A stretch of 27,482 nt of DNA. Origin: an uncultured Pseudomonadota bacterium. GTDB taxonomy: Bacteria > Pseudomonadota > Gammaproteobacteria > Steroidobacterales > Steroidobacteraceae. The stretch is taken from assembly GCA_946479515.1 (NCBI GenBank), contig CAMLGF010000047.1, forward strand, positions 1 through 27,482, in the 5' to 3' direction. Below, in pieces: positions 4,093 to 24,249 of the stretch (the stretch's first letter is position 1; every line of letters starts with the position of its first letter). The position numbers were made by a program, and so were the translations under genes. Below the pieces are notes generated by a model that saw only the letters and a program-made list of their open reading frames with translations, ran no database searches and was not told the DNA's origin.

Positions 4093-4174
4093 TGTCACAT
4101 TCCCGCCGCCATGCGCCGCTGGCAATGGTGCCGATGAATGTGACAATGAAAATTAGGCATGTCCCCATTTTCCT
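4064..4174. repeat. 39-bp perfect inverted repeat with a 33-nt spacer
   Basis: The left arm (4064-4102) and right arm (4136-4174) are exact reverse complements over 39 bases, and the match ends at both sides. Each arm contains TGGGGACATGCC followed by an AT-rich TAATTTTCATTGTCACATTC, unlike the GC-rich surroundings. The right arm touches the last base of the GGDEF-EAL stop codon, and the left arm contains the start and first nine codons of the NlpC/P60 gene. In RNA it would form one very stable hairpin. Palindromes ending in GGGGACA/TGTCCC resemble small repeats mobilised by REP-associated (RAYT) transposases in Gammaproteobacteria. That link is inference from memory, and no transposase is nearby. 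Confidence 0.9.
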
Positions 4175-6714
4175 CAGGAGGCGGCGCGGTGGTCGGCGAT
4201 CTCGCTTCCGGGCCGGCGTGACTCGAGGATCTCGGTGAGCGCGGCGGCCGACATGGGTCTGGCCAAGTAGAACCCCTGCGCGGACTCGCAGCCGCGCGAG
4301 CGCAGGAAGTCGAGCTGTGCGCCCGACTCCACGCCTTCGGCGGTCACGCGTTTTCCGAGCGTATGCGCCATGGTGATGACCGATTCGACCAGGGCCCCCG
4401 CGGATTCGTTCTGTGGGACTTCATCCAGAAAGCTGCGGTCCAGTTTGACCGTGTGCACAGGATAACGCCGCAGGTAGTTCAGCGACGAGTAGCCGGTGCC
4501 GAAGTCATCCAGGGCCAGTTGCACGCCGAGCTGCGCCAGGGCGCGCAGCGGCTCCTCCACCTCGCTGTCGGCCAGCACGGATTCCACCAGTTCGAGCTCG
4601 AGGCAGCCGGGGTTGATACCGTGATGGACGAGCGCCGCCTGCACCAGCTTCACGAAATTGGCATCCTTGAGCTGCTGCACGGACACGTTCACCGAGAACA
4701 TGCGCGGCGCGATGCCCGCCCGCACCCACTCCGCGTACTGCTGGCAGGCGGTGTCCAGCACGAAGCCGCCGATGTCGGTGATGAGCCCGGAATGCTCCGC
4801 GGCCGGGATGAACTCGCCCGGTAGTTTGATGCCGTCGTAGCGCGTCTGCCAGCGCAGCAGCGCCTCGATGCCGCACAGCCGCCCGTCCTGGAGCGAGAAC
4901 TGCGGCTGATAGAAGAGCGCGAACTCGCGCCGGCGCAGTGCGCGGTGCAGGCCGCTGTCGGTGAAGGTGACGCGGCGCTGCGCCATGTCGCGCTCGAAGA
5001 ACACGGCGCGGCCGCGCCCCTGCGACTTGGCGCGATACATGGCGAGGTCCGCCTGGCGGATCACGTCCTCGAGATCCACGCCGTCGTCCGGGAACAGCGT
5101 CACGCCGACGCTGGCGCGCATCTGGTGGTCGCGTCCGCCGAGATTGGCCGGGAGCGCCAGCGAGCGGATCACGCGCTCGGCGATCTGCCGCACGGTGTCG
5201 AGGTCGCCGACGTTACGCAGCAGCACGGTGAACTCGTCGCCGCCGAGCCGGGCCACGGTGTCGCCTTCCTTCGTGCACGCTTTCAGGCGATGCGCCACGA
5301 TGGACAGCAGCTGGTCGCCGGCCGAGTGGCCCAGCGTGTCGTTGACGCGCTTGAAGTGGTCCAGGTCCACGTACATGAGCGCGCCGCGCGTGAGGCCGGT
5401 GGCCGCGGCGGCCAGTTCCTGCGCGAGACGGTCGCGGAACAGCGCGCGGTTCGGCAGCTGGGTGAGCGGGTCATAGTGCGCCTGGCGATACAGGCGTTCG
5501 TCGCGGGCGCTGTTGGACAGCGCCGCTCGCAGCCGCTCGGCGAAGGCCGCGCCGTAGTCGGCCACGGCGGGGTCGCGCGCCGGTTCGCCGTGATAGCCCA
5601 CCACCAGCAGGGCCGAGAGACGGTCGTCGTCCAGCACGGGCCACAGCCAGAAGAATTCCGAGCCCACGTCGCGCATGGAGAGCAGGAAGGAATGCCGCGG
5701 TTCTTCGATGCGCGCGATGGTCAGGCCCTCGGGCGCCTCGCGCACCGTGGCGATCATGGCGAGATCGAATGTCACGCGCTGCACGGGCAGTTCCTCCGCG
5801 CCCAGCGCCGCCATGAACAGCCGGCCATGGGAATGCGCCGTGGGGTCGAGCAGTACCACGCCCACGCACTGGCTGCGCGTGAGCTCGCGGAATTTCGGCA
5901 GCACGACGTCGAGCGCCCGATCGATCTCGCTGGCGGCGAGCAGCGCGCGATCGACCTCGCCCAGCACTTCGAAGGCCCGCCAGTCGCGCGACAGCGAAAG
6001 CGCGGTGGTGTTGAACTCGCGCTCGAGCGGCGCGAATTCCGTCACGGTGGTGTGCGGCAGGGATTCGAAGCGGCGCTCACGCAGCCGGACGAGCCCGCGC
6101 TGCAGGGCGCGCAGCGGCGGCAGGTAGTGTTCTGCAATGAGCGCGGCGACCGCGAAGGCCACCAGCAAGGTCAGCACCAGCAGTCCCAACGCCATGGGCG
6201 CGAGCTCCGCGGCGGCCGCGCCGAAGCTGGCCTCGGGAGCGAATACCACGACGATGTTCGCGGAGGCCGGGTCATCCGCGTGCGCCGGCGGCAACCAGGT
6301 CATGGCGCCGCGCCACTCACGGCCGGAGGCATACCAGGCGAGGATGGTGGTGCCATTCGGCACCGCCACGGCGTGCGGTGCGCGCCGCGCGAACAGTTGC
6401 ACCAGCTCTTCCGGCACGGGCGAATTGCTGAACCGCGCCGCGCCGACGCCGTCGAGCACGACCAGATAGCGGCCGTCGAGGCCGCGCGCGAAATCCCCGG
6501 GCAGCGTGCGCGCATTGAACAGCAGCGTGGACGCCTTGTCGCGCGACAGGGCGACGAGCTCCTGGTTCTGCAGGGTGGCGCGCCGTTCCTCCGCCTCGAA
6601 CCAGTGCGACAGCACGGCGATGCCCACCGGAATCAGCATGGCGATGCAAATGATCAGCCACAGCCGGCGCGTGAGCCCGCTGCGCAGGATCGAGTTGTAC
6701 GGTGGTTCGCCCAT
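4174..6714 (-). CDS. Membrane GGDEF-EAL protein (c-di-GMP cyclase/phosphodiesterase)
   Basis: An 846-residue inner-membrane signalling protein. The order is TM1 (about 17-36), a periplasmic sensor of about 135 residues, TM2 (about 173-195), a HAMP-like segment (about 196-245), a GAF-like region (about 250-400), GGDEF (about 410-570) and EAL (about 580-835). GGDEF is intact at 491-495 (RLGGDEF). The inhibitory I-site, normally RxxD five residues upstream, reads KEGD, so product inhibition may be lost. The EAL domain keeps EAL (617-619), ELVES (709-713), DDFGTGYSSL (736-745), KLDRSF and EGVES, so phosphodiesterase activity is expected. The net direction (making or degrading c-di-GMP) cannot be decided. 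The ATG at 6714 has only a weak GGAAG upstream. A 39-bp inverted repeat begins at its stop codon. Confidence 0.95.
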   Translation of the reverse strand: MGEPPYNSILRSGLTRRLWLIICIAMLIPVGIAVLSHWFEAEERRATLQNQELVALSRDKASTLLFNARTLPGDFARGLDGRYLVVLDGVGAARFSNSPVPEELVQLFARRAPHAVAVPNGTTILAWYASGREWRGAMTWLPPAHADDPASANIVVVFAPEASFGAAAAELAPMALGLLVLTLLVAFAVAALIAEHYLPPLRALQRGLVRLRERRFESLPHTTVTEFAPLEREFNTTALSLSRDWRAFEVLGEVDRALLAASEIDRALDVVLPKFRELTRSQCVGVVLLDPTAHSHGRLFMAALGAEELPVQRVTFDLAMIATVREAPEGLTIARIEEPRHSFLLSMRDVGSEFFWLWPVLDDDRLSALLVVGYHGEPARDPAVADYGAAFAERLRAALSNSARDERLYRQAHYDPLTQLPNRALFRDRLAQELAAAATGLTRGALMYVDLDHFKRVNDTLGHSAGDQLLSIVAHRLKACTKEGDTVARLGGDEFTVLLRNVGDLDTVRQIAERVIRSLALPANLGGRDHQMRASVGVTLFPDDGVDLEDVIRQADLAMYRAKSQGRGRAVFFERDMAQRRVTFTDSGLHRALRRREFALFYQPQFSLQDGRLCGIEALLRWQTRYDGIKLPGEFIPAAEHSGLITDIGGFVLDTACQQYAEWVRAGIAPRMFSVNVSVQQLKDANFVKLVQAALVHHGINPGCLELELVESVLADSEVEEPLRALAQLGVQLALDDFGTGYSSLNYLRRYPVHTVKLDRSFLDEVPQNESAGALVESVITMAHTLGKRVTAEGVESGAQLDFLRSRGCESAQGFYLARPMSAAALTEILESRRPGSEIADHRAAS

Positions 6715-10885: not shown

Positions 10886-11935
10886 CTAGCTGATGCAGCG
10901 CGGCGCGCCGAGCACGTCCACCTTGACCGCGCAACCCGGACCGCCGATGGTGAGGCCGACGAACGTGCCTTCGTTGTCGTCGCACATGGCGCGCATTAAA
11001 ACAGAAAAGCGCGCGTTGATGTGCGCGGGCGAGCTCGTGCCATTCGGCATGCCGATGGCGTGGATGCGGATCTTGTGGCGGCCCTGCCGGTCCACGGGGT
11101 TGTACTTGCGCACGGCGGCCAGCGCCGCTTCCACCGAGGCGCCGGTGAAGTCGTCGCCGATGACGTACACGCTGATCTTCTTGTCCGCCGACCACCAGCC
11201 CTGCACCGCGGCGCCGATGCCTTCGATGGGGTTGGAGTTGCTGTAGGACTTCCAGTTCACCATGGCCGAGAGCACCTTGGCGCGCTGCGCCGGTGTGTCC
11301 TGCAGCCACTGGCCGCGGGTGCTCGCGAACATGGGCTTGCCCTCGTCATCGAGCACCTGCATGCCCTTCACCTTGGGATAGATGTCGAGGATCTCCTTCA
11401 TCACGTTCTGGGCATTCTCCCAGTTGTCGGCCTGCATGCTGCCCGACGTATCGATGACGAAGATGATCCACTCGCTGTCCACCGGGATGCCGGCGACCGC
11501 GAGCACGCTGGGGTCCTTGCGCGGCGCGTTCTTGAGCAGCCGGGCCATCTCGGCCGTGAGCGTCTGGTGCGCGGCGACGAGCTCGGTCTCGACGATGTTG
11601 GTGACCGTGGCCTCGCCCTTGCTGGCCTTGAACTCGCCGCGGATCTTGGAAAGGTCGCCGGCCATGAGCGCGACCTTGCGCTGCGCCTCGTTGAGCACGC
11701 TCATGCGGCCCTGCAGCTCGCGATTGAGCACGTCGGTCTCGCCGCGCAGATCGAACAGCTGCCGCTGCAGGGCGTCGATCTGCTGCTTGAGATCCTTCTC
11801 GCTGCGTTCGATGACCACGGGCTGGCCGACGTCGGTGAGCACCAGCAGCAGGATGATGGCGCCGAAGCCACAGCAGATGCAGTCGAGGAACGACAGCGTG
11901 AAGACTTCGAATTCGCGACGTTTGCCGAGAGCCAT
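10886..11935 (-). CDS. Membrane-anchored vWA-domain protein 1
   Basis: A 349-residue protein. A short basic N-terminus leads into the motif FTLSFLDCICCGFGA and a single membrane span (about 13-35), which places an Asp (residue 18) at the start of the span. A coiled coil follows (about 43-100). The von Willebrand A domain begins near residue 155 and has an intact metal-ion motif, DTSGSM (162-167). A later 'YVIGDDF' segment fits the following conserved strand. vWA domains bind ligands through a divalent metal at that motif. The protein is a paralogue of the next gene upstream (21-bp spacing), with the same N-terminal motif. The ATG at 11935 has AGAGG about nine bases upstream. Confidence 0.92.
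   Translation of the reverse strand: MALGKRREFEVFTLSFLDCICCGFGAIILLLVLTDVGQPVVIERSEKDLKQQIDALQRQLFDLRGETDVLNRELQGRMSVLNEAQRKVALMAGDLSKIRGEFKASKGEATVTNIVETELVAAHQTLTAEMARLLKNAPRKDPSVLAVAGIPVDSEWIIFVIDTSGSMQADNWENAQNVMKEILDIYPKVKGMQVLDDEGKPMFASTRGQWLQDTPAQRAKVLSAMVNWKSYSNSNPIEGIGAAVQGWWSADKKISVYVIGDDFTGASVEAALAAVRKYNPVDRQGRHKIRIHAIGMPNGTSSPAHINARFSVLMRAMCDDNEGTFVGLTIGGPGCAVKVDVLGAPRCIS
10989..11015. other. AT-rich patch flanked by GCGCGC inside the vWA1 gene
   Basis: GCGCGC at 10989-10994 and at 11009-11015 flank 14 bases of A/T-rich sequence inside the vWA1 coding region. On the coding strand it reads Phe-Ser-Val-Leu with TTT, TCT, GTT and TTA codons. TTA is exceptional in this GC-rich window. 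It can form a hairpin with an AT-rich loop. It may be a local mutation or a structure; no function is shown. Confidence 0.4.
11871..11911 (-). repeat. 41-bp exact direct repeat, copy in vWA1
   Basis: These 41 bases are identical to 12993-13033 and encode the shared EVFTLSFLDCICC segment of the two vWA paralogues. The match stops sharply on both sides, while the rest of the two genes has diverged. The copies are 1,122 bp apart in direct orientation. Confidence 0.95.
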
Positions 11936-11956
11936 GTGTCGTGCGCCTCTTCTGCC

Positions 11957-13057
11957 TTACGGCCAGTCGCGTGACGGAACCACGAACGAGCCACTGGTGC
12001 GGCGCGCGAGCCGCCAGAAGGCGTGCGTGGACAGTGGATCGCCCTTCATGGGCAGCATGACCACGTCCATGGGCGTGTCCTTCTCGAGCGTGCCCATCGC
12101 GTCGTCGAACAGCTTCTCGCGTTCGCGGCCGTTGATGAACTTGCGCGCCGGCGGCACCGAGCCCTGCGTGGGCAGGCCATCGGTGATCAGGATGATCTGG
12201 TCGGGCTTGGGGTCCATGGTGCGGATGGCGAGAAAGGCGTTCACCAGGCTCGTGCCTTCGGCGGGCGTGATGCCGCGCGCCGCCGCCAGCACGCCGTTGA
12301 TGGCGCGCGGATCGTTCGAATCCAGCCACTGGCCGGCGGTGCTCGCCTGCACGGGCCTGGCCTTGGCACTGAAACCGATCACCTGGAACTTGCTGTTGTC
12401 GGGCAGTTGGGCCGTGAGCCACTCGACGATGTCGAGCGCGCGCCGCCACTTGAGCGCGGCGCGCCGCATGGGCTCGGGCTGGTTGCGCAGCCGGATCACC
12501 TTGGCGATGTCCTCGTCCATCATGCTGGCCGAGGTGTCGAGCAGCACCAGGATGCGCCGCCCCTTCACCTGCATGGCGCTGATGTATTTGCGATTGCCGC
12601 GGCCGCGGAAGGATTTCACACGCTCGCCGGCCGGCGCCTTGTCGAGTGCGCCGCCCTGCAGGCGCTTGACGCCCTCCTCCAGAGACTTGATGTCGGCCTT
12701 GAGCTGGTTGATGTGCTCGCGGCGCGCGATGCTCTCGTCGTCGTAGCTCGACGACTGCTCGCGGCGCTCCTTGAGCTCGGCGGCCACGCGGATGGCGCGC
12801 GCCCGGGCGGCGTCGGCATCCTCGTCGGTCTTCTCGAGCGTGTTCCGCAGCAGCACCAGGTTCTTGGTGCCCTCCTTCACTTCCTCTTCGAGCTTGGAGA
12901 CTTCGCCGGTGAGCTGATCGATGCGGATGATCTCCTGCGCGCCCACGTGCGCCTGCACGATGGTGTAGAAGAGCACCACCGCGCCGAAACCGCAGCAGAT
13001 GCAGTCGAGGAACGACAGCGTGAAGACTTCGAAGGCGCGGCGCTTCTTCACTGCCAC
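11957..13057 (-). CDS. Membrane-anchored vWA-domain protein 2
   Basis: A 366-residue paralogue of vWA protein 1. Residues 9-26 repeat the EVFTLSFLDCICCGFGA membrane motif, followed by a span to about residue 36 and a long charged coiled coil (about 44-135). The vWA domain starts near 165 with metal-ion motif DTSASM (174-179). 'EGTSLVNAF' supplies the conserved Thr and 'LITDGLPTQG' the conserved Asp, so the metal site is complete. The GTG start at 13057 is supported by GGAGG eight bases upstream and lies one base after the FHA gene's stop (TGACGTG), which suggests translational coupling. The two paralogues keep the same layout, which fits a hetero-oligomer or a duplicated adaptor. Confidence 0.92.
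   Translation of the reverse strand: MAVKKRRAFEVFTLSFLDCICCGFGAVVLFYTIVQAHVGAQEIIRIDQLTGEVSKLEEEVKEGTKNLVLLRNTLEKTDEDADAARARAIRVAAELKERREQSSSYDDESIARREHINQLKADIKSLEEGVKRLQGGALDKAPAGERVKSFRGRGNRKYISAMQVKGRRILVLLDTSASMMDEDIAKVIRLRNQPEPMRRAALKWRRALDIVEWLTAQLPDNSKFQVIGFSAKARPVQASTAGQWLDSNDPRAINGVLAAARGITPAEGTSLVNAFLAIRTMDPKPDQIILITDGLPTQGSVPPARKFINGREREKLFDDAMGTLEKDTPMDVVMLPMKGDPLSTHAFWRLARRTSGSFVVPSRDWP
12993..13033 (-). repeat. 41-bp exact direct repeat, copy in vWA2
   Basis: This is the second copy of the repeat at 11871-11911 and encodes the N-terminal membrane motif of vWA2. Recombination between the copies would fuse the vWA2 start to the vWA1 body and remove one gene in frame. Confidence 0.95.
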
Positions 13058-13058
13058 G

Positions 13059-14408
13059 TCACTGCCCTCCGAATGCGGCCGCGGAGATCAGCGTGAACTC
13101 GACGCCCGGCGTGCCGACGCGCACGCGATCCCCGGGGCGCACGCCGGCGCGCTCGCGCACGCGCGCGCCGTTGACCCAGGTGCCATAGCGGCTGTGGTCG
13201 ATGAGCACGGTGCGCTCGCCCTCGCGGCGCAGGGAGCAGTGCCGGCGCGACACGCCGGCCGCCGCGCGCGGCAGCGTGATGTGCGGCGAGTCGCTGACTT
13301 CCTCGGTGCCGATGGTGAGGCCCGCCTCGGGGAAGCGCATGGAATCGCCGCCATAGAGAATGTGCGTCACCGGCAGCGCGCGCGCGGGTGAGGTGGTGGC
13401 CGATGCCACGTATTCCACGTCGGCCGCGAGAGAATGCCCGTCGATGCGTGCCGCGCGGCGCCGCAGGCGTGGCGCCTGGGCGGCTTCGGCCTGCTGCAGC
13501 GAGGCGGCCACTGCGGCGATGCCGGCCGGCGCGATCACCAGGCCGTCCTGCTCGAGCTCGAGCAATCGCGTGAGGAATCCCGGCCAGCGGCGCGACTCGG
13601 CCGGCAGCACCAGCGCCGTGCCCTCGCCCGCGATGCGCGCCGAGCGCGTGAGGCGCGCCAGCTCACGATAGAACGACTGCGCGGCATCGACGAACAGCGG
13701 CGCCTCCACGTCCACGGCGAAGCGCGCGCCGTCGGATTCGACCACGGCTTCCACCTTGCCCTCGACCGCGGCACGCGCGGCCAGCGCGGGCAGGTCGGCG
13801 AACAGGCTCTGCTCGGTAGTCAGGCTCAGCAGCGGGTCGAAACGCGTGTTCTTCACCAACGCCGCGGCGACCACGCTCAGCCACAGGTCGTACACATCCA
13901 GCAGGTTGGCGCGTTCGCTGACGAACGATTCCTCGAACGCGCACTCCGCGCCGCCGAGCACGCGCGTTGCGGTGGCGGAGCGCCAGCCGGCTTCCAGCAC
14001 CACGTAGTGTTCGCGATCCGTCACGGCGGCGGCGGTGAGCGTGGCCGCATCGACGAAGTCGCGCACGTCGGCGCCGGCGGCGCTCAGCGCTCCGCGCAGG
14101 CTCGCCAGGGCCGGGGCATCGAGATCGGGCGGCACGGCCACGACCATGTCGACGCGTTCGCTCACGCCGAGCGCACGCAGGTGCGCCTGCATCTCGCGGG
14201 CCACGTTGCGCGCGGCGTGCTCGTCTCGACCGAGCTGACGCCAGTGATTCAGCGACACCTCGTCGGGACGGCCGCGCGCCACGGCGAGCGCCACGCGGCC
14301 GAAGCGCGGCTCGCGCGCCACGGTCTCCACGGCCAGCGGCTCAGTGGCGAGCAGCGCGCCATCGCGGGCGAGAGACAGCGTGTGGTGATCGAAATGCAGG
14401 CCGTACAT
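13059..14408 (-). CDS. FHA-domain protein with a possible actin/Hsp70-like N-terminal region
   Basis: A 449-residue soluble protein. The C-terminal part (about 345-442) is a well-kept forkhead-associated domain: 'LTIGTEEVSDSPHITL', then 'GVSRRHCSL' with the Ser-Arg-x-His phosphothreonine-binding motif, 'HSRYGTWVNGARV', and 'RPGDRVRVG'. It should therefore read phosphothreonine marks, probably made by the kinase encoded upstream. The first 330 residues ('MYGLHFDHHTLSLARDGALLATEPL', 'VDMVVAVPPDLDAPALASLRGALSAAGADV', 'VVLEAGWRSATATRV') have the rhythm of an ASKHA (actin/Hsp70) fold, but I see no intact phosphate-binding loops. That assignment is tentative. The start lies four bases after the stop of the small Pro-rich gene, and the stop is one base before the vWA2 start. 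Confidence 0.85.
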   Translation of the reverse strand: MYGLHFDHHTLSLARDGALLATEPLAVETVAREPRFGRVALAVARGRPDEVSLNHWRQLGRDEHAARNVAREMQAHLRALGVSERVDMVVAVPPDLDAPALASLRGALSAAGADVRDFVDAATLTAAAVTDREHYVVLEAGWRSATATRVLGGAECAFEESFVSERANLLDVYDLWLSVVAAALVKNTRFDPLLSLTTEQSLFADLPALAARAAVEGKVEAVVESDGARFAVDVEAPLFVDAAQSFYRELARLTRSARIAGEGTALVLPAESRRWPGFLTRLLELEQDGLVIAPAGIAAVAASLQQAEAAQAPRLRRRAARIDGHSLAADVEYVASATTSPARALPVTHILYGGDSMRFPEAGLTIGTEEVSDSPHITLPRAAAGVSRRHCSLRREGERTVLIDHSRYGTWVNGARVRERAGVRPGDRVRVGTPGVEFTLISAAAFGGQ

Positions 14409-14412
14409 GTGG

Positions 14413-14823
14413 CTAGGTATTCGTGGGGAAACTGACGCTCGAATCGGCGTCGTATTGCAGGTCGGGCGGCAGATCCTCGGGCGCGATGCCCTCGTAGGGA
14501 TCCTTGTCCGCCTGCGGCTCTTCGCTGCCGCTGTCGCCGGCGGGCCGGGCAGCGCCGGCCGTGGGCTCGGCCGGCTTGCCTGCGCCGCCCGGCGCGGGCT
14601 TGTCGGCATCCGGAATGGAGGCCGGCGGCGCCGGGCGGTCCCCGGAGGGCGCCGGCGCACTGTCGCCCGGCGGCGCGCCGACCGGCGGCGTGCCCGAGGC
14701 TGGCTTGTCCGCGGGCGGTGGCCCGATGCGATGCACAGGTGTGTTCAGCATGGCCGTGGTCGCGGCAATCGCGGCCACCGCGGCGAGCGCGATGGCGAAC
14801 AGGCTGAAAATCACGTTCCTCAC
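14413..14823 (-). CDS. Small membrane-anchored Pro/Ala/Gly-rich protein
   Basis: A 136-residue protein. An N-terminal hydrophobic segment (about 4-25, 'VIFSLFAIALAAVAAIAATTAML') is either a signal anchor or a signal peptide. A disordered stretch rich in Pro, Ala and Gly fills about 30-105. A conserved-looking acidic end follows ('DPYEGIAPEDLPPDLQYD'). The GTG start overlaps the preceding gene's stop by four bases (GTGA), a sign of translational coupling. No family is recognised. As a short anchored linker between the FHA/PEGA protein and the FHA protein it may be a docking peptide. It also contains Thr and Ser that could serve as kinase targets, but nothing in the sequence shows that. Confidence 0.75.
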   Translation of the reverse strand: MRNVIFSLFAIALAAVAAIAATTAMLNTPVHRIGPPPADKPASGTPPVGAPPGDSAPAPSGDRPAPPASIPDADKPAPGGAGKPAEPTAGAARPAGDSGSEEPQADKDPYEGIAPEDLPPDLQYDADSSVSFPTNT

Positions 14824-17309
14824 GGCTGCACCGCCGGCACGTCGGCCGCGGGCGTCTCGCCCGCCGGCGGATCGGGCGGCGCGACGTAGCGCGCGACGCG
14901 GAAGCCGATGAAATCGGCGGCCTCGGCGGCGCCTTCACGCCAGGGGAAGCGCAACTCGCTGGCGTTCACCGTGCGCCAGCTGGAACCACGGTAGGTGTGT
15001 CCCTTGCTGTCGTTCGGGCCGAGCGGATCGGTGACTGGCGTCGACGGCACGAATGACAGGTACTTGTCATTGGTCCACTCCGAGACGTTGCCGGCGAAAT
15101 CGTAGAAACCCAGCGGATTCGGCGGAAACAGTGCGGGCGCCGCAGTGACCGGAAATTCGTCGCGATGGCCCTCGAGTGCCGCGCCGAGCAGCGCGTAGGC
15201 CTCGTTGCCGGCGACGTTGGCGGACCCGGACACCACCGGCAGGTCGGCGCCCCAGGGATACTTGAGCACCTTGCCGGTGCTCGCGGCCCGCGCGACGAAT
15301 TCCCACTCCGCCTCGGTGGGCAGGCGGAAGCCGATGTTCACGGGCGTGATGAGCTCGAAGCCGCCGCCATCGGCGGCCTGGTAGGCCGGCGGCAGCCCCT
15401 CCTGCGCCGACAGCCAGTTGCAGAACTCCGCGGCTTCTTCCCAGGTGACCCGCACCACGGGCTGTTTGTCGAGATCCAGCGACTGCTGGCCGAAGGCGCC
15501 GGAATTGTGCTCGGTGCGGAACTGGCGGAACTGCCCGTTGGTGACCTCGCGCTCGCCCATGTAGAAGGGGCGGAACAGCGTGACGCGATGACCGCCTTCA
15601 TTGGGGCGGCGCCCCTGCTCGCGACGATCGGTGCCCGCCTGGAACGTGCCCCCGGCCACCACGAGTAGTTTGATGCCGCTCTTGGTGGTCAGCTTCTGCG
15701 GCGCATTGCCGGCGACGTCCCGCGGGTCGATGAGCTTGAAGCCAAGCGTGCGGCCGATGCCCGGCGCCAGTGCCACGTCGGTGACGTAGGGACTGTAGCC
15801 TTCCTTGCGGACCTCGATGTGGTGGCGGCTGGCGGGCAGCTGCAGGGTCACCGGCGCCTTGCCGCGCGAGGTGCCGTTGACGAACACCTCGGCGTCGGAC
15901 GGCTGGCCCTGGATGCGGACCTCGACCAGCAATGCCGCGAGGCGCGCATCGAGCGCGCTCTCCTTGCCAGCCTCGGCGAAGACTTCCCGCACCCAGGGCG
16001 CATAGCCGGCGCGTGTGATGGAGATGGCGTGGTTCGCCCCGGGCGACAGCGACAGCGTGAGCGGCGTGAGGCCCTGGAAGGCGCCGCCGGTCGTCACCTG
16101 CGCGCCGGACGGAACCGAGCGCACCGTGACGCGCGCATCGGCCGCCCCCAGCTCGATGGGCCCGATGGTCTGCGCGACGCCGGCGTTCACCACCACGCTG
16201 GAATTCCAGACGCGCAGTCCGGGTGCGGACAGCTGCACGCGGCGGATGCCGGCATCGAGATCGAGACGGGCGGGCGTGACCCCCGCGGCCTTGCCATCGA
16301 CTTCGATCGCAGCCCCGGCCGGCACCGAGGCGATGCTGACCCAGGCGAAATTCGGCTTGAGCCGGACCGTGAGCTTCTGCTGCTCACCGCCGCCGGCAAT
16401 GGTGACGCGTTCGATGTGATCGAGATGCCGCGCGGCCTTGAAAGTGAGCGTGCGCTCGCCGGCGGGCACCTCGACCACGCCCGGAACCTGACCGAGCTTC
16501 GCGCCGTCAGCGCTGATCTGCGCGGTCACGCCGCCGGTGTCCACTTCGAGCCGGCCCGGCAGTTTGACCAGGTGGATGAGCGCGCGCGCCGGCTGTGGAC
16601 CACCCACCTTCACGGTGACGTCGGCGGGTAGATAGCCAGCGCGTTCGGCGTGCAGCCGGTGCTCGCCGGGGAACACGAACACGCTCGATGCCGACTGCCA
16701 GGAGAACGCGCCCTGCGAGCGCACGCGCGCATCGCCGGGCTTCAGGTCCAGCGCGATGGGCTCGAGCAGCGCGAACATGCCGAGCACCAGCGCGAGCAGC
16801 GCGGCCATGATCCACGCCGCGTAGTTCCAGTGGCTGCGCGCCTGCGGGCGGGCGCGCGCGGCGAGGACGCCCTCGATGGCCGGCACGTCCCCCAGGTCGA
16901 TGGCGAGATCTTCGGCCGGTGGCGCCAGCGTCCGCACGCTGTCGCCCACCGGCGGCAAGGTGTCGTTGCCGACGAGCTCGAAGCGACGCAGCGCGAGCGA
17001 GCCCGGCGCCGCCTCTTCGACCAGCAGCTGGATGCCCGCGATGGAGACCACGTCGCCGGAGTGGATGACGCGCGCGCCACCGAGCGGCACGCCATTGACG
17101 CTGACGCGCGCGCCCGGCGCGGCATCCAGCAGCCAGCGCGTGCCGGTCGCGCGCAGCGAGGTCTGGGGCGGCGCGTCAGGGGCCGGCGCCTCCACGTCGG
17201 AACGCATCGCGCCCGTGGCCGCGTCGAACAACACCCGCCCGCTGTAACGCGTGTCACCCGCGTCGGAACGCAGGATGACGTGGGCATCGAGGGCGCGGGA
17301 CGGTTCCAT
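14820..17309 (-). CDS. FHA-like / TM / PEGA repeats / formylglycine-generating-enzyme-like protein
   Basis: An 829-residue fusion. Residues about 8-100 look like an FHA fold ('VSVNGVPLGGARVIHSGDVVSIAGIQLLVEE') but lack the Ser-Arg-x-His motif, so phosphothreonine binding is doubtful. One membrane span at about 163-183 puts this part in the cytoplasm. Outside are roughly four PEGA-type beta repeats (about 249-526; 'SVPAGAAIEVDGKAAGVTP', 'SVPSGAQVTTGGAFQGLTP', 'PSDAEVFVNGTSRGKAP'). Residues about 546-808 form an FGE-sulfatase/SUMF1-like domain ('FRLPTEAEWEFVAR', 'GFYDFAGNVSEW', 'YRGSSWR', 'IGFRVAR'). The catalytic cysteines that follow 'GGSW' in true formylglycine enzymes are absent, so a binding or structural role is likely. 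Its start is six bases after the kinase gene. Confidence 0.92.
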   Translation of the reverse strand: MEPSRALDAHVILRSDAGDTRYSGRVLFDAATGAMRSDVEAPAPDAPPQTSLRATGTRWLLDAAPGARVSVNGVPLGGARVIHSGDVVSIAGIQLLVEEAAPGSLALRRFELVGNDTLPPVGDSVRTLAPPAEDLAIDLGDVPAIEGVLAARARPQARSHWNYAAWIMAALLALVLGMFALLEPIALDLKPGDARVRSQGAFSWQSASSVFVFPGEHRLHAERAGYLPADVTVKVGGPQPARALIHLVKLPGRLEVDTGGVTAQISADGAKLGQVPGVVEVPAGERTLTFKAARHLDHIERVTIAGGGEQQKLTVRLKPNFAWVSIASVPAGAAIEVDGKAAGVTPARLDLDAGIRRVQLSAPGLRVWNSSVVVNAGVAQTIGPIELGAADARVTVRSVPSGAQVTTGGAFQGLTPLTLSLSPGANHAISITRAGYAPWVREVFAEAGKESALDARLAALLVEVRIQGQPSDAEVFVNGTSRGKAPVTLQLPASRHHIEVRKEGYSPYVTDVALAPGIGRTLGFKLIDPRDVAGNAPQKLTTKSGIKLLVVAGGTFQAGTDRREQGRRPNEGGHRVTLFRPFYMGEREVTNGQFRQFRTEHNSGAFGQQSLDLDKQPVVRVTWEEAAEFCNWLSAQEGLPPAYQAADGGGFELITPVNIGFRLPTEAEWEFVARAASTGKVLKYPWGADLPVVSGSANVAGNEAYALLGAALEGHRDEFPVTAAPALFPPNPLGFYDFAGNVSEWTNDKYLSFVPSTPVTDPLGPNDSKGHTYRGSSWRTVNASELRFPWREGAAEAADFIGFRVARYVAPPDPPAGETPAADVPAVQP

Positions 17310-17315
17310 GGGCGT

Positions 17316-19700
17316 CTAGATAGGCTCGAGACAGCGGATCACGATGGTCTGCCCGGACTGTCCCGGCGCCACGGTGATGTCCCGGCGCACGTCGCGGAAA
17401 CCCGCGCGCTTGCCGGTGACGGTGTAGCGGCCGGGCTTGAGCTGCACTTCGCGCTGGTCGAACGCACCCAGGAAACCCACTCTCTGGATGGCGACTTCAG
17501 TGGCGCTGTCGGATTCGAGTGTCAGCATGACCGGCTGGTTGAACGTGGGTAGCAGCAGTTCCAGACGCGAGACCTGCGAGCGGATCACCGGGCCCTGCGT
17601 GGGCAGCGCCCGGGCCCGCGCCAGCAGGCGCTCTGCCTGTGTTCGGACCTCGTCGGCGGCCAGACGTTCCGGCCTGTCGATGAGTGCCTGCAGCTGTTCC
17701 CCGAGTTCCGCGCGCGGCGCCACCGCGGCCCGGCCGTCGATGGCGAACTGCAGCGTGGGATCGCGCGCCAGCGCCTCGTCGTATAGCTCCAGCGCCTCGG
17801 TCCAGCGCTCCTCGGTCGCCAGCCGCGCGGCGCGGTTCTCGATGTCGGCGAGACTGCGGCCGGAGCCCATGTCGGCGACGCGCTGCAGGGCCGCGGCCAC
17901 CTCGCTGCTGTCCGGGCGCAGCGTCCGGGCGCGCTGCAGACGGGTATTCGCCTCGGCGAGGCGGCCGGCATTCAGGGCCGAGAGCCCGGCGCCCATGGCC
18001 GCGTTGAATTCGGCATCCGCCATCGACCGGTTCACGCGCGCCAGCCCCTGAGTGGCGGCGAGGTTGCCCGGGTTGCCTGCCAGCACCTCGGTGAACAGGC
18101 GCTTGGCCCGCGGGTAATCCTTCTGTGCCTCGGCATTCTCGGCATCCGCGATCGTGGGCAGCACGCCGCTGGCAGAGGCCACCTTCGCCAGCCATGCCGT
18201 GGCCTCGTTGTTGCCGGGCTCGATCTTGAGCGCGGTATCGAAGGCATGGCGCGCGTTCTCGAACTCGCCGGCCGCGAGCGCACGCTTGCCCTCGGTCATC
18301 TGTGCCGCGAGCGCCTCGGGCACGCGCGCCTCGATGGCGTCCAGCGACTTCTGCAACTGCGCGAGGGTTTCCGGCGCGCCGTCGTACTTGCGACGTTCGA
18401 GCATGCCGCCGATCTCGTCGAGGGAGTGGCGCGCGGCAGCGAACTGCTCGCCGCCCCACTGCGCGGCGGCGCGCGAATCGAGATCCTGCAGGCGCTGGCG
18501 CAGCTCGGCATGCTCATCCACGAGCTGCTCGACGCGCTTCTGCTCGTCCTGCTCCGCGGGCGTGGGACCACCGGGAATCTGCAGCACGGACGGATCGATC
18601 CGCGTCATGCTCGTGAGCTTTGGCAGCCACACCGCCACGCCGGCGGTGGCCGCCACCAGCACGGCCGCGATCACCCAATTGCGCCGCCGCGTGCTGGCGC
18701 GATGCTGGCGCTCCGCGGCCGCGCGGATCTCGTCGACGCGCGGCAGCACGTCGGGGGATATTTCCTCGAGTTCGCGCAACGTGCTGACCGCGGGCAGGGC
18801 GTCGTCGCCCGCCGTCGCTGGCGCGAGCTCATCGGCGGTCATTCCCGGCAGCGAGCCGTCGTCTTCCGCGGCCGCTGCCTCGGCGGAGGAGTCGAGACCC
18901 AGCGTGTCCTGCAGAACCGCGCTCATCTCCTCCGCCACGTGCTTCATGGAAGGCGGGCGTTCGCGACCGTGCTTGGCGAGCAGCCAGGAGACCAGTAGTT
19001 CGAGCCGCGGCGGTATCGGCTTCACCGGCTTGAGGCGCGGCACCGGCTCGCTGGCGATCTTGCGCGCGTCGAACACGGGATAGAACGGCGGGTAGCCCGA
19101 CAGCAGCTCGTAGGCCAGCGCGCCCAGCCCGTAGATGTCGTCGCTGGGGCGCGCAGGCTCGTTCGCGATCTGCTGCGGACTGGCGGAGAAGGGCGAGCCC
19201 GGCGGGCCGCTCGAGACATCGCCCTCGGAGGCGCCGGCGCCAAAATCCGCGAGCAACGGCCGACCCGCGGCATCCAGCAGGATGTTCGAGGGTTTGAGGT
19301 CTCGGTGCACCACGCGGCGCGAATGCGCGTGTTCCAGCGCGGCGGCCACATCGATGAGCAACGGCAGGATGCGGGTATACGAGGCGCCGCGCAGCTGACG
19401 CAGGTCACCGCCCGCCGCGTAGACCATGGGCAGCACCACGGCGTCCGCCGCGCGCACCGGCTCATGAACGCGCAGCACGCCGGGATGATTCAGCCGCGCG
19501 GTGAGCATGAACTCGCGCATGAAGATGTCCCACGCAGCTTCCGAGTTCATGAGCTGCGGGTAGAGCACCTTCAACGCGACTTCGGTGTCGCGCAGTTCGT
19601 CACGCGCGCGCCATACCTCGCCATGGCCGCCGGCGCCGAGTTTGTCGATGAGCACGAAGCGGCCGCACAGCTTCGTGCCCGCCTGGTTCTGGTTTGTCAC
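17316..19700 (-). CDS. Transmembrane serine/threonine protein kinase with PEGA-like tail
   Basis: About 794 residues. The kinase domain (about 14-270) has the glycine loop GAGGHGEV (22-29), the ATP-binding lysine in VALKVL (44), HRDLKPSN (132-139), DFG (152-154) and an activation-loop end SPQQ, so it should be active. A membrane span lies at about 342-360. Outside the membrane come a coiled-coil/TPR-like helical region (about 385-700) and a C-terminal PEGA-type beta domain ('EVQLKPGRYTVTGKRAGFRDVRRDITV'). It resembles PknB-like sensor kinases that read envelope state. The start is uncertain: the GTG at 19700 lies just before the kinase fold but has no clear ribosome-binding site, and the upstream gene ends 38 bp earlier. 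Likely targets are the FHA partners encoded downstream. Confidence 0.93.
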   Translation of the reverse strand: MTNQNQAGTKLCGRFVLIDKLGAGGHGEVWRARDELRDTEVALKVLYPQLMNSEAAWDIFMREFMLTARLNHPGVLRVHEPVRAADAVVLPMVYAAGGDLRQLRGASYTRILPLLIDVAAALEHAHSRRVVHRDLKPSNILLDAAGRPLLADFGAGASEGDVSSGPPGSPFSASPQQIANEPARPSDDIYGLGALAYELLSGYPPFYPVFDARKIASEPVPRLKPVKPIPPRLELLVSWLLAKHGRERPPSMKHVAEEMSAVLQDTLGLDSSAEAAAAEDDGSLPGMTADELAPATAGDDALPAVSTLRELEEISPDVLPRVDEIRAAAERQHRASTRRRNWVIAAVLVAATAGVAVWLPKLTSMTRIDPSVLQIPGGPTPAEQDEQKRVEQLVDEHAELRQRLQDLDSRAAAQWGGEQFAAARHSLDEIGGMLERRKYDGAPETLAQLQKSLDAIEARVPEALAAQMTEGKRALAAGEFENARHAFDTALKIEPGNNEATAWLAKVASASGVLPTIADAENAEAQKDYPRAKRLFTEVLAGNPGNLAATQGLARVNRSMADAEFNAAMGAGLSALNAGRLAEANTRLQRARTLRPDSSEVAAALQRVADMGSGRSLADIENRAARLATEERWTEALELYDEALARDPTLQFAIDGRAAVAPRAELGEQLQALIDRPERLAADEVRTQAERLLARARALPTQGPVIRSQVSRLELLLPTFNQPVMLTLESDSATEVAIQRVGFLGAFDQREVQLKPGRYTVTGKRAGFRDVRRDITVAPGQSGQTIVIRCLEPI

Positions 19701-19738
19701 GATGCGGTTGTCAGCTGTCTGAACCCAGCCCGACTCTA

Positions 19739-21022
19739 TCAGCTGGCGGGCTGTGCCGGAGTCGCCGCCGTGGTGGCACCGGCCGCCGGCTGTGCCGCCG
19801 GCGGCGGCGCCGCGGCCTTGCCGGTCTCTTCCAGGTAGAGCTGCTTGAGCATCTTGCGCCACTCGCGGTACTGGTCCTCGGCGGTGCCGGTGAGCCGCAG
19901 CGTGTGGCCTTCCACCTCCACGACCTGCGGCGCCACTTCCGACTGGAAGCTCAGCGTGAGTTCCTTGAGCGCATCGGCGTGGGTGCGCGCATCGCCGTAC
20001 TTCTTGATGCCGGACAGCACCGCGGCGATGCCGCCCATGGTGCCGGCGGTGCGCGCCGCATTGTTGATACGGCAGCTGTCATACGTGCTGCAGGAGTTCG
20101 GCGCGAAGATCGCGGCGATCAGCGCCGCGGCACCCAGCACCGTGCGCGTGCGCGCGGCCGAGCGGGCGCGCATTTCCTTCTCGAGCTCGGAGAAGCTGGT
20201 CTGGCGCCAGCTGTCGTACGAGTCGTCCATGTTGTCGGCGAAACTCGCGTAGTAGTCGTTGACGGTGTCGACCACCGCGGTGTCGCGTTCCCGGATGCGT
20301 TCGATGCGGCTCAGCGTCGGATCGCCTTCGGCCGGCAGTCGCACCACCTGCGTGATGCCGTTCTTGTCCTCGGCCGTCATGCCGGCCATGGCGTCGGGCG
20401 CGAGATCCTGCGCGAATTTCAGCGCCGCGACCCGGCGGATGTTTTCGCGGTCGAGTGCGGTGAGCTTGTCGCGCGCCGCCACCAGATCGTTGGCGATTTC
20501 CGAGTAGACGTTCTGAAAGGGATCGCGCGCCTTGAGCGAGGCCTGGGTCTTGTAGGCGCCGAGATCGACGAGGCTCGAGTAACGCTTGTTGCTGATCCAG
20601 GTGCGACCGGCGGCGTCGACGGCGCTGATGTCGATGGCCAGGAAGCCGCCGTTCGAATCGACCAGCGTGCCGCTGACGATGACGTCGACGAACTCGGCGG
20701 TGGCGGGAATGACGCGCACCGCGCCCCATTGCGCGGTCTCCTCGAGCGTGGCGCGCAACAGCGTGGGCATGTAGCGCGCCTCGGCCTTGCGCAGGTCGGG
20801 GTAGATGCGCTTCTTCGCCAGCGCTTCCTCGTCACCCTCGAGATTCTTGGGGATTCCCGGATCGAAGACGCGGATGCCGACGTCGAGCAGCTCGGCGTCG
20901 GGAATGTGCACCGTGGCCTGCTTGGCCTGGATCTTCGGAAGGGGCCTGGTTTCCGCCGTGACGCAGCCGCTGAGCGACAGCACTGCCGCGATCGCACCGG
21001 CTGCCAGTAGTTTGACTGTCAT
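19739..21022 (-). CDS. Large lipoprotein of unknown family
   Basis: A 427-residue predicted lipoprotein, lipobox LSGC with Cys20. The N-terminal half (about 30-200) has an alpha/beta pattern ('VHIPDAELLDVGIRVFDPGIP', 'VIVSGTLVDSNGGFLAIDISAVDAAGRTW'), recalling the periplasmic halves of CsgG-type or assembly lipoproteins. The middle is helical. A short hydrophobic stretch ('VLGAAALIAAIFA', about 302-314) is followed by two cysteines in 'NSCSTYDSCR'. The end is Pro/Ala-rich. The ATG at 21022 has GAGGA eight bases upstream and is 16 bp from the preceding stop. I cannot name the family. Its place directly before the kinase gene suggests it works with the kinase's outer part. Confidence 0.85.
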   Translation of the reverse strand: MTVKLLAAGAIAAVLSLSGCVTAETRPLPKIQAKQATVHIPDAELLDVGIRVFDPGIPKNLEGDEEALAKKRIYPDLRKAEARYMPTLLRATLEETAQWGAVRVIPATAEFVDVIVSGTLVDSNGGFLAIDISAVDAAGRTWISNKRYSSLVDLGAYKTQASLKARDPFQNVYSEIANDLVAARDKLTALDRENIRRVAALKFAQDLAPDAMAGMTAEDKNGITQVVRLPAEGDPTLSRIERIRERDTAVVDTVNDYYASFADNMDDSYDSWRQTSFSELEKEMRARSAARTRTVLGAAALIAAIFAPNSCSTYDSCRINNAARTAGTMGGIAAVLSGIKKYGDARTHADALKELTLSFQSEVAPQVVEVEGHTLRLTGTAEDQYREWRKMLKQLYLEETGKAAAPPPAAQPAAGATTAATPAQPAS

Positions 21023-21038: not shown

Positions 21039-21908
21039 TCAAGAAGCAGACTTCTTGTACTCGTTGTATTCCTTCCAGAGCCGCTCCTTGAGCTCCGGGT
21101 CCGTCTCTTCCTCCGCGGCCTTGCGCAGGCGCTTGGCGACGATGTCGTCGTCGTCACCGGTGCGCGCCCGCTGATGGCCGGCGCCGCTGCCACCGGCGCT
21201 CTTGCCGTTGCCGTTCACCGCGCCCGGGTCGCCCTGGTTGTTGGCGCCCTTCGAGGGCGAACCCGATGACTTGAGGTCGCCGTTGCGTGCCGAGCGATCG
21301 TTGTTGGAGCCGTCGCCGCTGCCGCCACCTGCCGTGCCGTCATCGCCGGAACCTTCGCCCTCGGCGCTGCCCTTGGCATCGCGCTCGCGCGCGACGCGCT
21401 CCTGCTCCTTGCGCAAGGTCTTGTCGAAATCGCCGAGCGAATCGTCGAGGGCTTTCTCGCCTGCCTGTCGCCGCTCGTCCGGCGTCTGCGCGCCGCCGGG
21501 GCCCTCGGGCGTGCCGCTGCCCGACTGATCGCTGCCGCCATTGGTGCCGCCGTTCGAGCCGCTGGAGCCGCCACTTGGCGCGCCCTTGCTCGAGTTGCCG
21601 TCACCGTCGCCGGAATCTCCGGGCAGGCCCATGGTGCCGGAAGTCGATGAAGAGTCTCCGGGCATGCCGGGAAGACCCGTGCTGCTGCCACCGGGCATTC
21701 CACCGGGTGAGCCACCCGGCATTCCACCGGGCATTCCGCCGGGCATTCCGCCGGGCATTCCGCCGGGCATGCCATCGCCGCCCGGCATGCCGCCACCACC
21801 ACCGGGCATGCCTCCGCCACCCGACGGGCTCGGCATGCCGCCGCTCGACGCGCAACCAGCGATCACCGCCGCGGCGGCTATCAGGGAAATCAGGATGGGT
21901 GCGCGCAT
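21039..21908 (-). CDS. Lipoprotein with MPGG tandem repeats
   Basis: A 289-residue predicted lipoprotein, lipobox IAGC with Cys19. Right after the lipid site comes a run of MPGG units (about 24-70). A long disordered Gly/Ser/Asp/Asn-rich stretch follows with a helical charged island in the middle ('[31 protein letters not shown]'). A charged helical tail ('[31 protein letters not shown]') ends the protein. The layout suggests a flexible tether from the outer membrane to a C-terminal helix that binds a partner. The ATG at 21908 has a strong GAGGAGG five bases upstream. It is second in the cluster, 22 bp after the first lipoprotein gene. No family recognised. Confidence 0.85.
21688..21772 (-). 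repeat. 12-bp tandem repeat array coding MPGG
   Basis: About seven units of a 12-bp repeat (GGCATTCCGCCG and close variants on the plus strand) encode successive Met-Pro-Gly-Gly tetrapeptides, one changed to Ser-Pro-Gly-Gly. The four units in the middle are nearly identical. Such arrays change copy number by slippage in steps of four residues without breaking the frame. Confidence 0.85.
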
Positions 21909-22719: not shown

Positions 22720-24249
22720 CTACAGGTCGAGTGACAGTTGAGGAGGAGTACTTAGTGGCGGGCGGAACAGATGCGTGGCCAGCCCGGCATCACGGTCAGC
22801 GGGAAAACCCAGCCTGCGGCTGGCCAGCCGGAAGCGCTGGCGTATCAGCTCGGCCACCGGACCGACGGCGTGCATCCTCGTCCCGAAACGGGGGTCGTTG
22901 TCGCGTCCGCCGCGCATGGCGCGCACCTGCGACATCACATGTTCCGCGCGATCAGGGAAATGCTCAGCCAGCCATTCGCGGAACAGATCTTTCACTTCCC
23001 AGGGCAATCGTAACAAAGTGTATCCGGCCGCCGACGCGCCGGCCTCGCGGCTGGCCGCGAGCACGTCTTCGATTTCGTGTTCGGTGATCACCGGGATGAT
23101 GGGCGCCACCAGCACGCCGACGGGAACGCCGGCCTCCGCCAGCGTGCGCATGGCCTTGAGGCGGGCCGCCGCCGCCGCGGCCCGCGGTTCCAGCCGGCGC
23201 TTCAGATCGTTGTCCAGCGTCGGGATGCTGAACATCACGCGCACCAGGCCATCGCGGGCGAGTTCCGCCAGCAGGTCGGCATCGCGCGCCACCAGTGCGC
23301 CCTTGGTGGTGATGTTCACGGGATGCCGGTAACGCAGCAGCACTTCGAGGATGGACCGCGTGACCTTGTGGGTTTTCTCGATGGGCTGGTACGGATCGGT
23401 GTTGGCGCCGAGCATCAGCGGCCTGCAGCGGTAGCCCTTCGCATCGAGTTCGGATTGCAGCAGGCGCGCGGCGTCGGCCTTGTAGAAGAGCCGGGTCTCG
23501 AAATCGAGGCCCGGTGAAAGGCCCACGTAGGCATGGCTCGGCCTCGCGTAACAGTTGTGGCTGACCACGCCATTGGCGATGAAATCTTCGCTGCCGGTGG
23601 TGATGTCGTAGAGGCGCAGCGCGCGGCCCAGCGGCTCTATCTTCTGCACGGCGAAGCGCTCGTCGCTGCGGACGGGCTGCGCGGCGAGATCGCGATCAGG
23701 ATCCGGCCCCATGAGTCGCTCGTCGGGTGCCAGATGCGGCCGCGGCGCCGAATCCTCCGGCGCGCCCCGCACGAACTTCCAGCCGAAGTCCGTGAGGAAG
23801 CGATGCTCGCCGCCGGTGATGAGCTCGACGCCGTTCTTCAGCGTGACGCGGAAGGCGGGCTTGATGACGCTCCAGTGCGCGAGCACTTCGGTCTTGATGT
23901 AGTGGCGGTGGGAACCGATGCGCCGCGTGCCGTAGATGGCGTCGCCGACGCGCAGCTCGGCGAGCGGCTTGGTGGCGCCATTCGCCAGCAGCACCGGGGT
24001 CTCCCCGGACGCGCAGTAGATGCAGCCGTGTTCGCAGCCGCGATACGGATTGATGGACGAGTCGAAACCGATGTCGGGCGACCGATTGTGGCTGATGATC
24101 GAGCGTGCGGGCTCGGGCAGCACGACGGTTTCGAGCTTGCCGGGCTCCTCCTCTTCATACCAGCCGTCGTGCTCGAGGGAGCGGGTGAGCTTGTCGAAGC
24201 GGCCGGGCGGCTGGGACAGGGCGCCGCGCCCCTTTATAGAGGTGGACAT
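22720..24249 (-). CDS. PA0069/Rv2578c-family radical SAM protein, interrupted by an intein
   Basis: The precursor is 509 residues; after removal of the intein the enzyme would be 355, the usual family length. The N-terminus (KGRGA, then 'NPYRGCEHGCIYC') gives the radical SAM CX3CX2C cluster motif at Cys72, Cys76 and Cys79/233. The rest forms the SAM barrel ('GANTDPYQPIEKTHKVTRSILEVLLRYRHPVNITTKG', 'FSIPTLDND', 'GVPVGVLVAPIIPVITEHEIEDVL'). The family is related to spore photoproduct lyase, and PA0069 belongs to the LexA regulon of Pseudomonas aeruginosa, so a DNA-damage role is likely. The ATG at 24249 starts the conserved region, has no ribosome-binding site, and coincides with the predicted transcription start. 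A LexA box overlaps its promoter. Confidence 0.93.
   Translation of the reverse strand: MSTSIKGRGALSQPPGRFDKLTRSLEHDGWYEEEEPGKLETVVLPEPARSIISHNRSPDIGFDSSINPYRGCEHGCIYCASGETPVLLANGATKPLAELRVGDAIYGTRRIGSHRHYIKTEVLAHWSVIKPAFRVTLKNGVELITGGEHRFLTDFGWKFVRGAPEDSAPRPHLAPDERLMGPDPDRDLAAQPVRSDERFAVQKIEPLGRALRLYDITTGSEDFIANGVVSHNCYARPSHAYVGLSPGLDFETRLFYKADAARLLQSELDAKGYRCRPLMLGANTDPYQPIEKTHKVTRSILEVLLRYRHPVNITTKGALVARDADLLAELARDGLVRVMFSIPTLDNDLKRRLEPRAAAAAARLKAMRTLAEAGVPVGVLVAPIIPVITEHEIEDVLAASREAGASAAGYTLLRLPWEVKDLFREWLAEHFPDRAEHVMSQVRAMRGGRDNDPRFGTRMHAVGPVAELIRQRFRLASRRLGFPADRDAGLATHLFRPPLSTPPQLSLDL
23554..24015 (-). other. Mini-intein (154 residues) at the third radical SAM cysteine
   Basis: The intein runs from Cys1 (precursor residue 79, 'CASGETPVLLANGATKPLAEL', block A) to Asn154. 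Block B is 'ELITGGEHRFLT', with a Thr and a His four apart. Block F is 'RLYDITTGSEDFIANGV', and block G is 'VSHN' followed by the +1 Cys. All protein-splicing residues are present: Cys1, block B His, penultimate His, Asn and Cys+1. There is no room for a homing endonuclease, because blocks B and F are only about 55 residues apart. Splicing would join 'GCIY' to 'CYARPSHAY' and complete the iron-sulfur motif. Annotated 'intein-containing Rv2578c family' radical SAM proteins are known in Actinobacteria; I know of none I can cite with this arrangement in a proteobacterium. Confidence 0.93.

Follow-up and report, generated by a model that had tools for sequence, protein, structure and literature searches.

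A predicted mini-intein before the third cluster cysteine of a PA0069-family radical SAM protein with Steroidobacterales kinship

Inteins lying directly before the third [4Fe-4S] cysteine of a radical S-adenosylmethionine (SAM) enzyme are known from Actinobacteria through the profile NF038136, which describes intein-containing Rv2578c proteins. Here we describe a mini-intein at the same site in a PA0069-family radical SAM protein, encoded on a 27,482-nucleotide stretch of DNA (contig CAMLGF010000047.1; the whole stretch is referred to below as the window). Taken by itself, the window intein matches the intein portion of NF038136 (E 7.7e-49), placing it in the same intein family, whereas the host subfamily differs: the whole window protein scores 392 bits against a curated cut-off of 700, which the Actinobacterial locus L001 passes with 753 bits. 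The insert is a real mini-intein and is known in kind, its family and site being familiar from Actinobacteria, here with a PA0069 host and Steroidobacterales kinship. The DnaB mini-inteins (Npu, 4o1r; Ssp, 1mi8) and the Mtu RecA splicing domain (3ifj) reside in other hosts, show 20-30% identity to the window intein and carry TxxH in block B. A parallel in geometry is provided by the intein of Pyrococcus abyssi MoaA, an archaeal protein of another enzyme family that likewise belongs to the radical SAM enzymes and shares their cluster motif. According to the accessible parts of two reports (PMC10663303, PMC3922620), it has, like the window intein, a Cys at position -3 of the N-extein together with Cys1; a redox effect was observed there, and the likeness of the window intein lies in its sequence. 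The mycobacterial SufB intein, as described in the accessible part of PMC8891592, is likewise a canonical intein whose host protein serves iron-sulfur metabolism, but that host is a cluster assembly scaffold and not a radical SAM enzyme. Neither a PA0069 nor an Rv2578c intein is mentioned in the accessible parts of PMC6195587, PMC8891592, PMC3922620 and PMC10663303, and among the matches listed by a literature search on inteins with radical SAM, Rv2578c or PA0069, a search outside which most subscription papers fall, no title or abstract describes such an intein.

The insert and its host protein

The insert is very probably a splicing-competent class 1 mini-intein, as predicted from its residues, and belongs to a mobile family with a single site that has likely moved between phyla; its endonuclease would have been lost in-frame and the remainder kept by the need to splice. 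Precursor residues 79-232 begin with Cys, end with His-Asn and are followed by Cys+1. All class 1 residues are present (Cys1, Thr6, His71, Asp137, His153, Asn154 and Cys+1), Cys1 is the sole cysteine of the intein, and the one LAGLIDADG pattern used found no match in its 154 residues, in keeping with a mini-intein. The predicted structure of the intein has a Hint fold, and TIGR01443 matched the window protein above its cut-off (21.2 versus 15.6). Comparison with a colinear relative revealed a gap of precisely 462 bases, the insert being absent in-frame from an otherwise alignable gene. An earlier annotation of the window (the sequence-only reading) had placed a mini-intein with intact catalytic residues at the third cluster cysteine, and had advised both a profile search and comparison with intein-free PA0069 homologues; its placement proved exact to the codon, and TIGR01443 and NF038136 supplied the positive part of the profile result. 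The same annotation described the CX3CX2C motif as split. The insertion does lie within the motif, but the latter is not simply broken, because the intein Cys1 stands in for the third cluster cysteine and the precursor therefore still reads CX3CX2C. It is very improbable that the insert is instead a normal enzyme domain, or a non-splicing bacterial intein-like (BIL) or hedgehog-type domain, since it interrupts the enzyme's cluster motif, carries a complete set of class 1 residues including Cys+1, and is precisely absent from close relatives.

Membership of the host protein in the PA0069 family, anticipated by the sequence-only reading, is indicated by NF033668 (475.4 bits against a curated cut-off of 360), with PF04055 also matching. 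A gammaproteobacterial host, likewise anticipated, is consistent with the closest genome belonging to the same order as a Steroidobacteraceae metagenome-assembled genome (MAG) and with two top homologues named Steroidobacteraceae. With the ATG at 24247-24249 as start, the choice also made for P0002, a nearly identical 509-residue protein in a separate database record, the precursor comprises 509 amino acids; the reading frame stays open upstream of this ATG and ends at the stop codon 22720-22722. Removal of 154 residues gives a predicted spliced product of 355 amino acids, the size foreseen earlier. If splicing proceeds as in known inteins, the intein, lying directly upstream of the codon for the third [4Fe-4S] cysteine, would begin with an N-S acyl shift in which Cys1 forms a thioester with Tyr-1. 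Transesterification would transfer the N-extein to Cys+1, the future third cluster ligand, Asn154 would cyclise with the assistance of His153, and an S-N shift would produce a normal peptide bond, restoring CEHGCIYCYARP. The thiol acting as splicing nucleophile (Cys+1) would then later bind the cluster.

Conservation was assessed in an alignment of 227 parsed inteins, of which nine or more duplicate a locus already represented. Cys1, Thr6, His71, Asp137, Asp144, Ser152, Asn154, Cys+1 and Tyr-1 were invariant in all 227, and His153 was kept in 226. The patterns used to find the rows fixed or restricted Cys1, His153, Asn154 and Cys+1 and, for the loci, Thr6 and Asp144 of the DF motif, so only the invariance of the remaining residues counts as independent. 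In one locus (L042) Leu replaces the penultimate His (ISLN), and this may be a decaying intein.

Table 1. Features of the intein-bearing gene (window positions)
Feature	Position	Strand	Basis
PA0069-family radical SAM gene with in-frame intein	22720..24249	minus	NF033668, PF04055, homologues
N-extein, 78 aa, end ...CEHGCIY	24016..24249	minus	translation, empty-site comparison
First Cys codon of CX3CX2C, at -7 from the intein	24034..24036	minus	translation
Second Cys codon of CX3CX2C, at -3 from the intein; may be the redox partner of Cys1	24022..24024	minus	translation; geometry as MoaA intein
Mini-intein, 154 aa, class 1 residues, no endonuclease	23554..24015	minus	translation, profiles, predicted fold, empty site
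Intein Cys1, presumed splicing nucleophile	24013..24015	minus	translation, alignment
Block B His71, in GGEH (Gly replaces Thr of usual TxxH)	23803..23805	minus	alignment
Linker with apparent endonuclease-flank remnants (RPHL...LMG...RDL...RSDERF)	23653..23742	minus	linker listing
Block F Asp137	23605..23607	minus	alignment
Block G His153-Asn154	23554..23559	minus	translation, alignment
Cys+1, first C-extein residue and third cluster ligand	23551-23553	minus	translation
C-extein, 277 aa, start CYARPSH	22723..23553	minus	translation, profile match, empty-site comparison

Elsewhere in the window, positions 4174-6714 encode a GGDEF-EAL protein, and positions 10886-19862 hold a series of genes encoding VWA, FHA, PEGA plus formylglycine-type and Ser/Thr kinase domains (one of two VWA matches being under cut-off) that resembles a single signalling or envelope cluster. 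A GMPGG-repeat protein at 21039-21908 has a start that looks lipoprotein-like by eye and has no Pfam match.

Alleles at the site and horizontal spread

A homologue search was run with the precursor as query, and the best 120 of the 7999 scored matches were parsed. In 119 of these an intein was parsed at the same site; in P0073 the N-terminal junction was present and the C-terminal junction unparsed. With the window counted and P0002 and P0073 left out, the carriers comprised 60 mini-inteins (148-178 residues) and 59 full-length inteins (306-349 residues). Because this query favoured intein carriers, a second search was made with an intein-free relative, in which 101 of the 120 listed homologues had intein-free lengths (345-387 residues) and the other 19 were known carriers. 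Ninety-six of the 101 parsed as empty sites; the five unparsed were left out, four of them reading CYSR or CFSR at the third Cys and one (P0152) unresolved. Addition of L091, the same protein as P0122, brought the empty rows to 97. The sequence-only reading would have yielded to an absence of precise deletions in relatives, and these alleles remove that objection. They also overturned the idea that the intein is present in almost every member of the clade, and L091, once considered a clear case of intein loss, was dropped as such after empty-site parsing.

A genome scan with the intein profile returned 360 relatives, of which 80 were retained. The intein followed CX3CX2 and preceded Cys in every one, upholding the earlier suggestion of a site shared with Actinobacterial Rv2578c inteins. 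By record title Actinomycetota made up most of these 80, alongside five Betaproteobacteria, six Gammaproteobacteria or Steroidobacteraceae, one Deltaproteobacterium (labelled Myxococcota in the extein tree) and one Armatimonadota. Counted among the matches listed, the gene was matched within the order of the Steroidobacteraceae genome in 126 of 246 genomes, and in seven of the 126, the centre genome included, the match extended into the intein; two genomes with weak, unlisted matches were left unjudged. In the phylum of an Actinobacterial centre, whose query was itself intein-bearing, 120 of 296 genomes had a match and 29 (centre included) an intein, again among the matches listed. Viral contigs gave 26 pattern matches and no encoded relative by tblastn. 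One Steroidobacteraceae MAG (G001) held two intein-bearing gene copies (C76 and C134), either paralogues or the product of a mixed bin. In the intein-free relative G230 (L180) a different intein-like insert lies in a 911-residue frame (37.7 bits to the intein profile) that by eye reads like the replicative helicase DnaB. In PA0069 and in Rv2578c proteins alike, a mobile intein family occupies this single position, and in the window's clade full LAGLIDADG, mini and empty alleles coexist.

The sequence-only reading had left two origins open, horizontal spread and an old shared insertion. In an extein tree of 143 rows, with Shimodaira-Hasegawa-like approximate likelihood ratio test (SH-aLRT) support only and with Armatimonadota and Myxococcota rows flagged as long, a starred branch parts the Rv2578c side (Actinomycetota, Armatimonadota) from the PA0069 side (Proteobacteria, Myxococcota). 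An intein predating this split and lost many times since would account for the identical site in the two subfamilies, and also for the intein tree (built from 106 rows and 140 columns, with stars on 10 of its 103 inner branches), where a single group (96*) holds 43 of the 45 proteobacterial inteins; the other two (L019, L095) sit with the Armatimonadota row and two rows from Actinomycetota (support 88, unstarred). Such an origin is nevertheless improbable. Mean identity between the Steroidobacterales clade and Actinomycetota is 57.6% for inteins and 32.6% for exteins, the best cross-phylum intein pair reaching 74.3% with exteins at 32.4%, and the relation is reversed inside the Steroidobacterales clade (inteins 67.9%, exteins 82.7%). 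Since inteins vary more than exteins inside the clade, the cross-phylum similarity suggests a transfer that postdates the divergence of the exteins. Strong constraint might lift the lower limit of intein identity, yet would leave unexplained why the average within-clade pair is less alike than the best cross-phylum pairs. Distances point the same way, as those of the two exteins track each other (r 0.49) and that of the intein follows either extein poorly (0.23, 0.28). The intein is also rare in Pseudomonadota: among 398 genomes, 172 had a match to the gene, and the intein was found in the centre genome only, among the matches listed. Most likely, judging by these comparisons, the intein family has crossed phyla, and horizontal spread is the favoured one of the two origins.

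Within these data, which are limited by metagenome protein clusters, weak forks and best-match selection, intein states (97 empty, 60 mini, 59 full) are slightly clustered on the extein tree, near random. Intein presence required at least 62 changes, 28 of them forced by starred branches, against a mean of 71 over 500 shuffles, of which 5 gave a value as low; the three states required 87 (shuffled mean 96). Among the rows listed, the nearest empty (87.5%) and mini (87.3%) alleles are equally close to the window, and the nearest full form is at 85.6%. Correlation between intein and C-extein falls unevenly along the latter, from 0.27 in the first 46 columns through 0.16, 0.15, 0.21 and 0.13 to 0.10 in the last, a hint of co-conversion and no more.

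Loss of the endonuclease and retention of the mini form

Full-length relatives carry about 190 extra residues where the window intein has a linker, and a LAGLIDADG-like pattern was present in 95 of 110 full-length inteins versus one of 117 minis (not the window's). The linker of the mini-intein P0076, LMGTGGFAAAISRKLDISGQ, compared with LMGTGRFAA...AISRKRDITGQ in the full-length P0018, looks like pieces of the endonuclease flanks, and the counterpart in the window is RPHLAPDERLMGPDPDRDLAAQPVRSDERF. In-frame loss of the endonuclease is the most likely origin of the mini form, and the varied lengths and junctions among minis suggest several such losses. In a pair of betaproteobacterial MAG loci (L014 and L048) the C-exteins are nearly alike (nonsynonymous divergence, dN, 0.07), whilst the inteins, a 156-residue mini and a 347-residue full form, differ much more (dN 0.33), a pattern suggestive of intein exchange or of rapid change following endonuclease loss. 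The proposal that minis are vertical and full forms mobile was unsupported (Mantel r 0.41 for minis versus 0.46 for full forms).

The small size of the window intein, its lack of an endonuclease and of the block B Thr would also fit a dead, decaying intein within a pseudogene. This is most unlikely, because catalytic residues are retained, the exteins are intact and an almost identical protein exists in a separate record (P0002). Mini-inteins of related loci are, moreover, under purifying selection, the ratio of dN to synonymous divergence (dS) being 0.12-0.45 in 14 pairs (13 mini versus mini), as expected if splicing must continue. The mini form would be retained because enzyme function depends on splicing.

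Several observations weigh against a splicing-competent mini-intein with this history. The dN/dS pairs come from outside the window's clade, and dS exceeds 1 in six of them, several being near saturation. TIGR01445 and PF14890 matched below their curated cut-offs, the negative part of the profile result, and the model of the precursor is poor (predicted local distance difference test, pLDDT, 65.8), too weak to judge distances between cysteines. The residue at -3 to the block B His is Gly (among the 227 family members, Gly in 120, Ser in 105 and Ala in 2), and the textbook form, according to the accessible part of PMC10663303, is TxxH with Thr at this position. G+C content (intein 0.69, exteins 0.66, window 0.69) gives no sign of recent arrival, because intein and window are equal. 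Finally, mini versus full required 11 changes on the intein tree (shuffled 40) and 36 on the extein tree (shuffled about 40); because minis group on the former and scatter on the latter, a single loss in situ with strict vertical descent is incomplete as an account. Lateral movement of minis is not claimed, because the grouping may be due to long-branch attraction or shared relaxed constraint (median root-to-tip distance 0.91 for minis versus 0.66 for full forms; 8 of 121 forks starred).

Possible redox or metal gating

The CIY|C junction places Cys-3 of the N-extein beside the intein Cys1, so that the cysteine pair of the MoaA-type redox trap is present. In the P. abyssi MoaA intein a Cys-3/Cys1 disulfide formed under oxidation blocks splicing (accessible parts of PMC10663303, PMC3922620), and metals inhibit other inteins at active-site residues (PMC10663303). 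Redox or metal gating of the window intein is plausible. That it operates as a natural switch, splicing being blocked by an oxidised Cys-3/Cys1 disulfide, by a metal ion or by a [4Fe-4S] cluster held on the two extein cysteines and Cys1, must be considered rather unlikely; presence of the cysteines is no evidence for gating, because intein-free relatives keep the extein cysteines for the enzyme's sake. Because Cys1 also stands in for an iron-sulfur ligand, a small precursor would allow a direct test of redox and metal sensing by an intein.

Empty, mini and full alleles among hosts with exteins about 80-90% alike, at one site and in several phyla, offer an unusually rich record of gain, endonuclease loss and re-invasion. 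If gating were true, cells would release the oxygen-sensitive enzyme only when reducing and sufficient in iron, and the repeated occupation of radical SAM cluster motifs by inteins (PA0069, Rv2578c, MoaA) would be adaptive, the mini forms being kept for regulation and not by chance.
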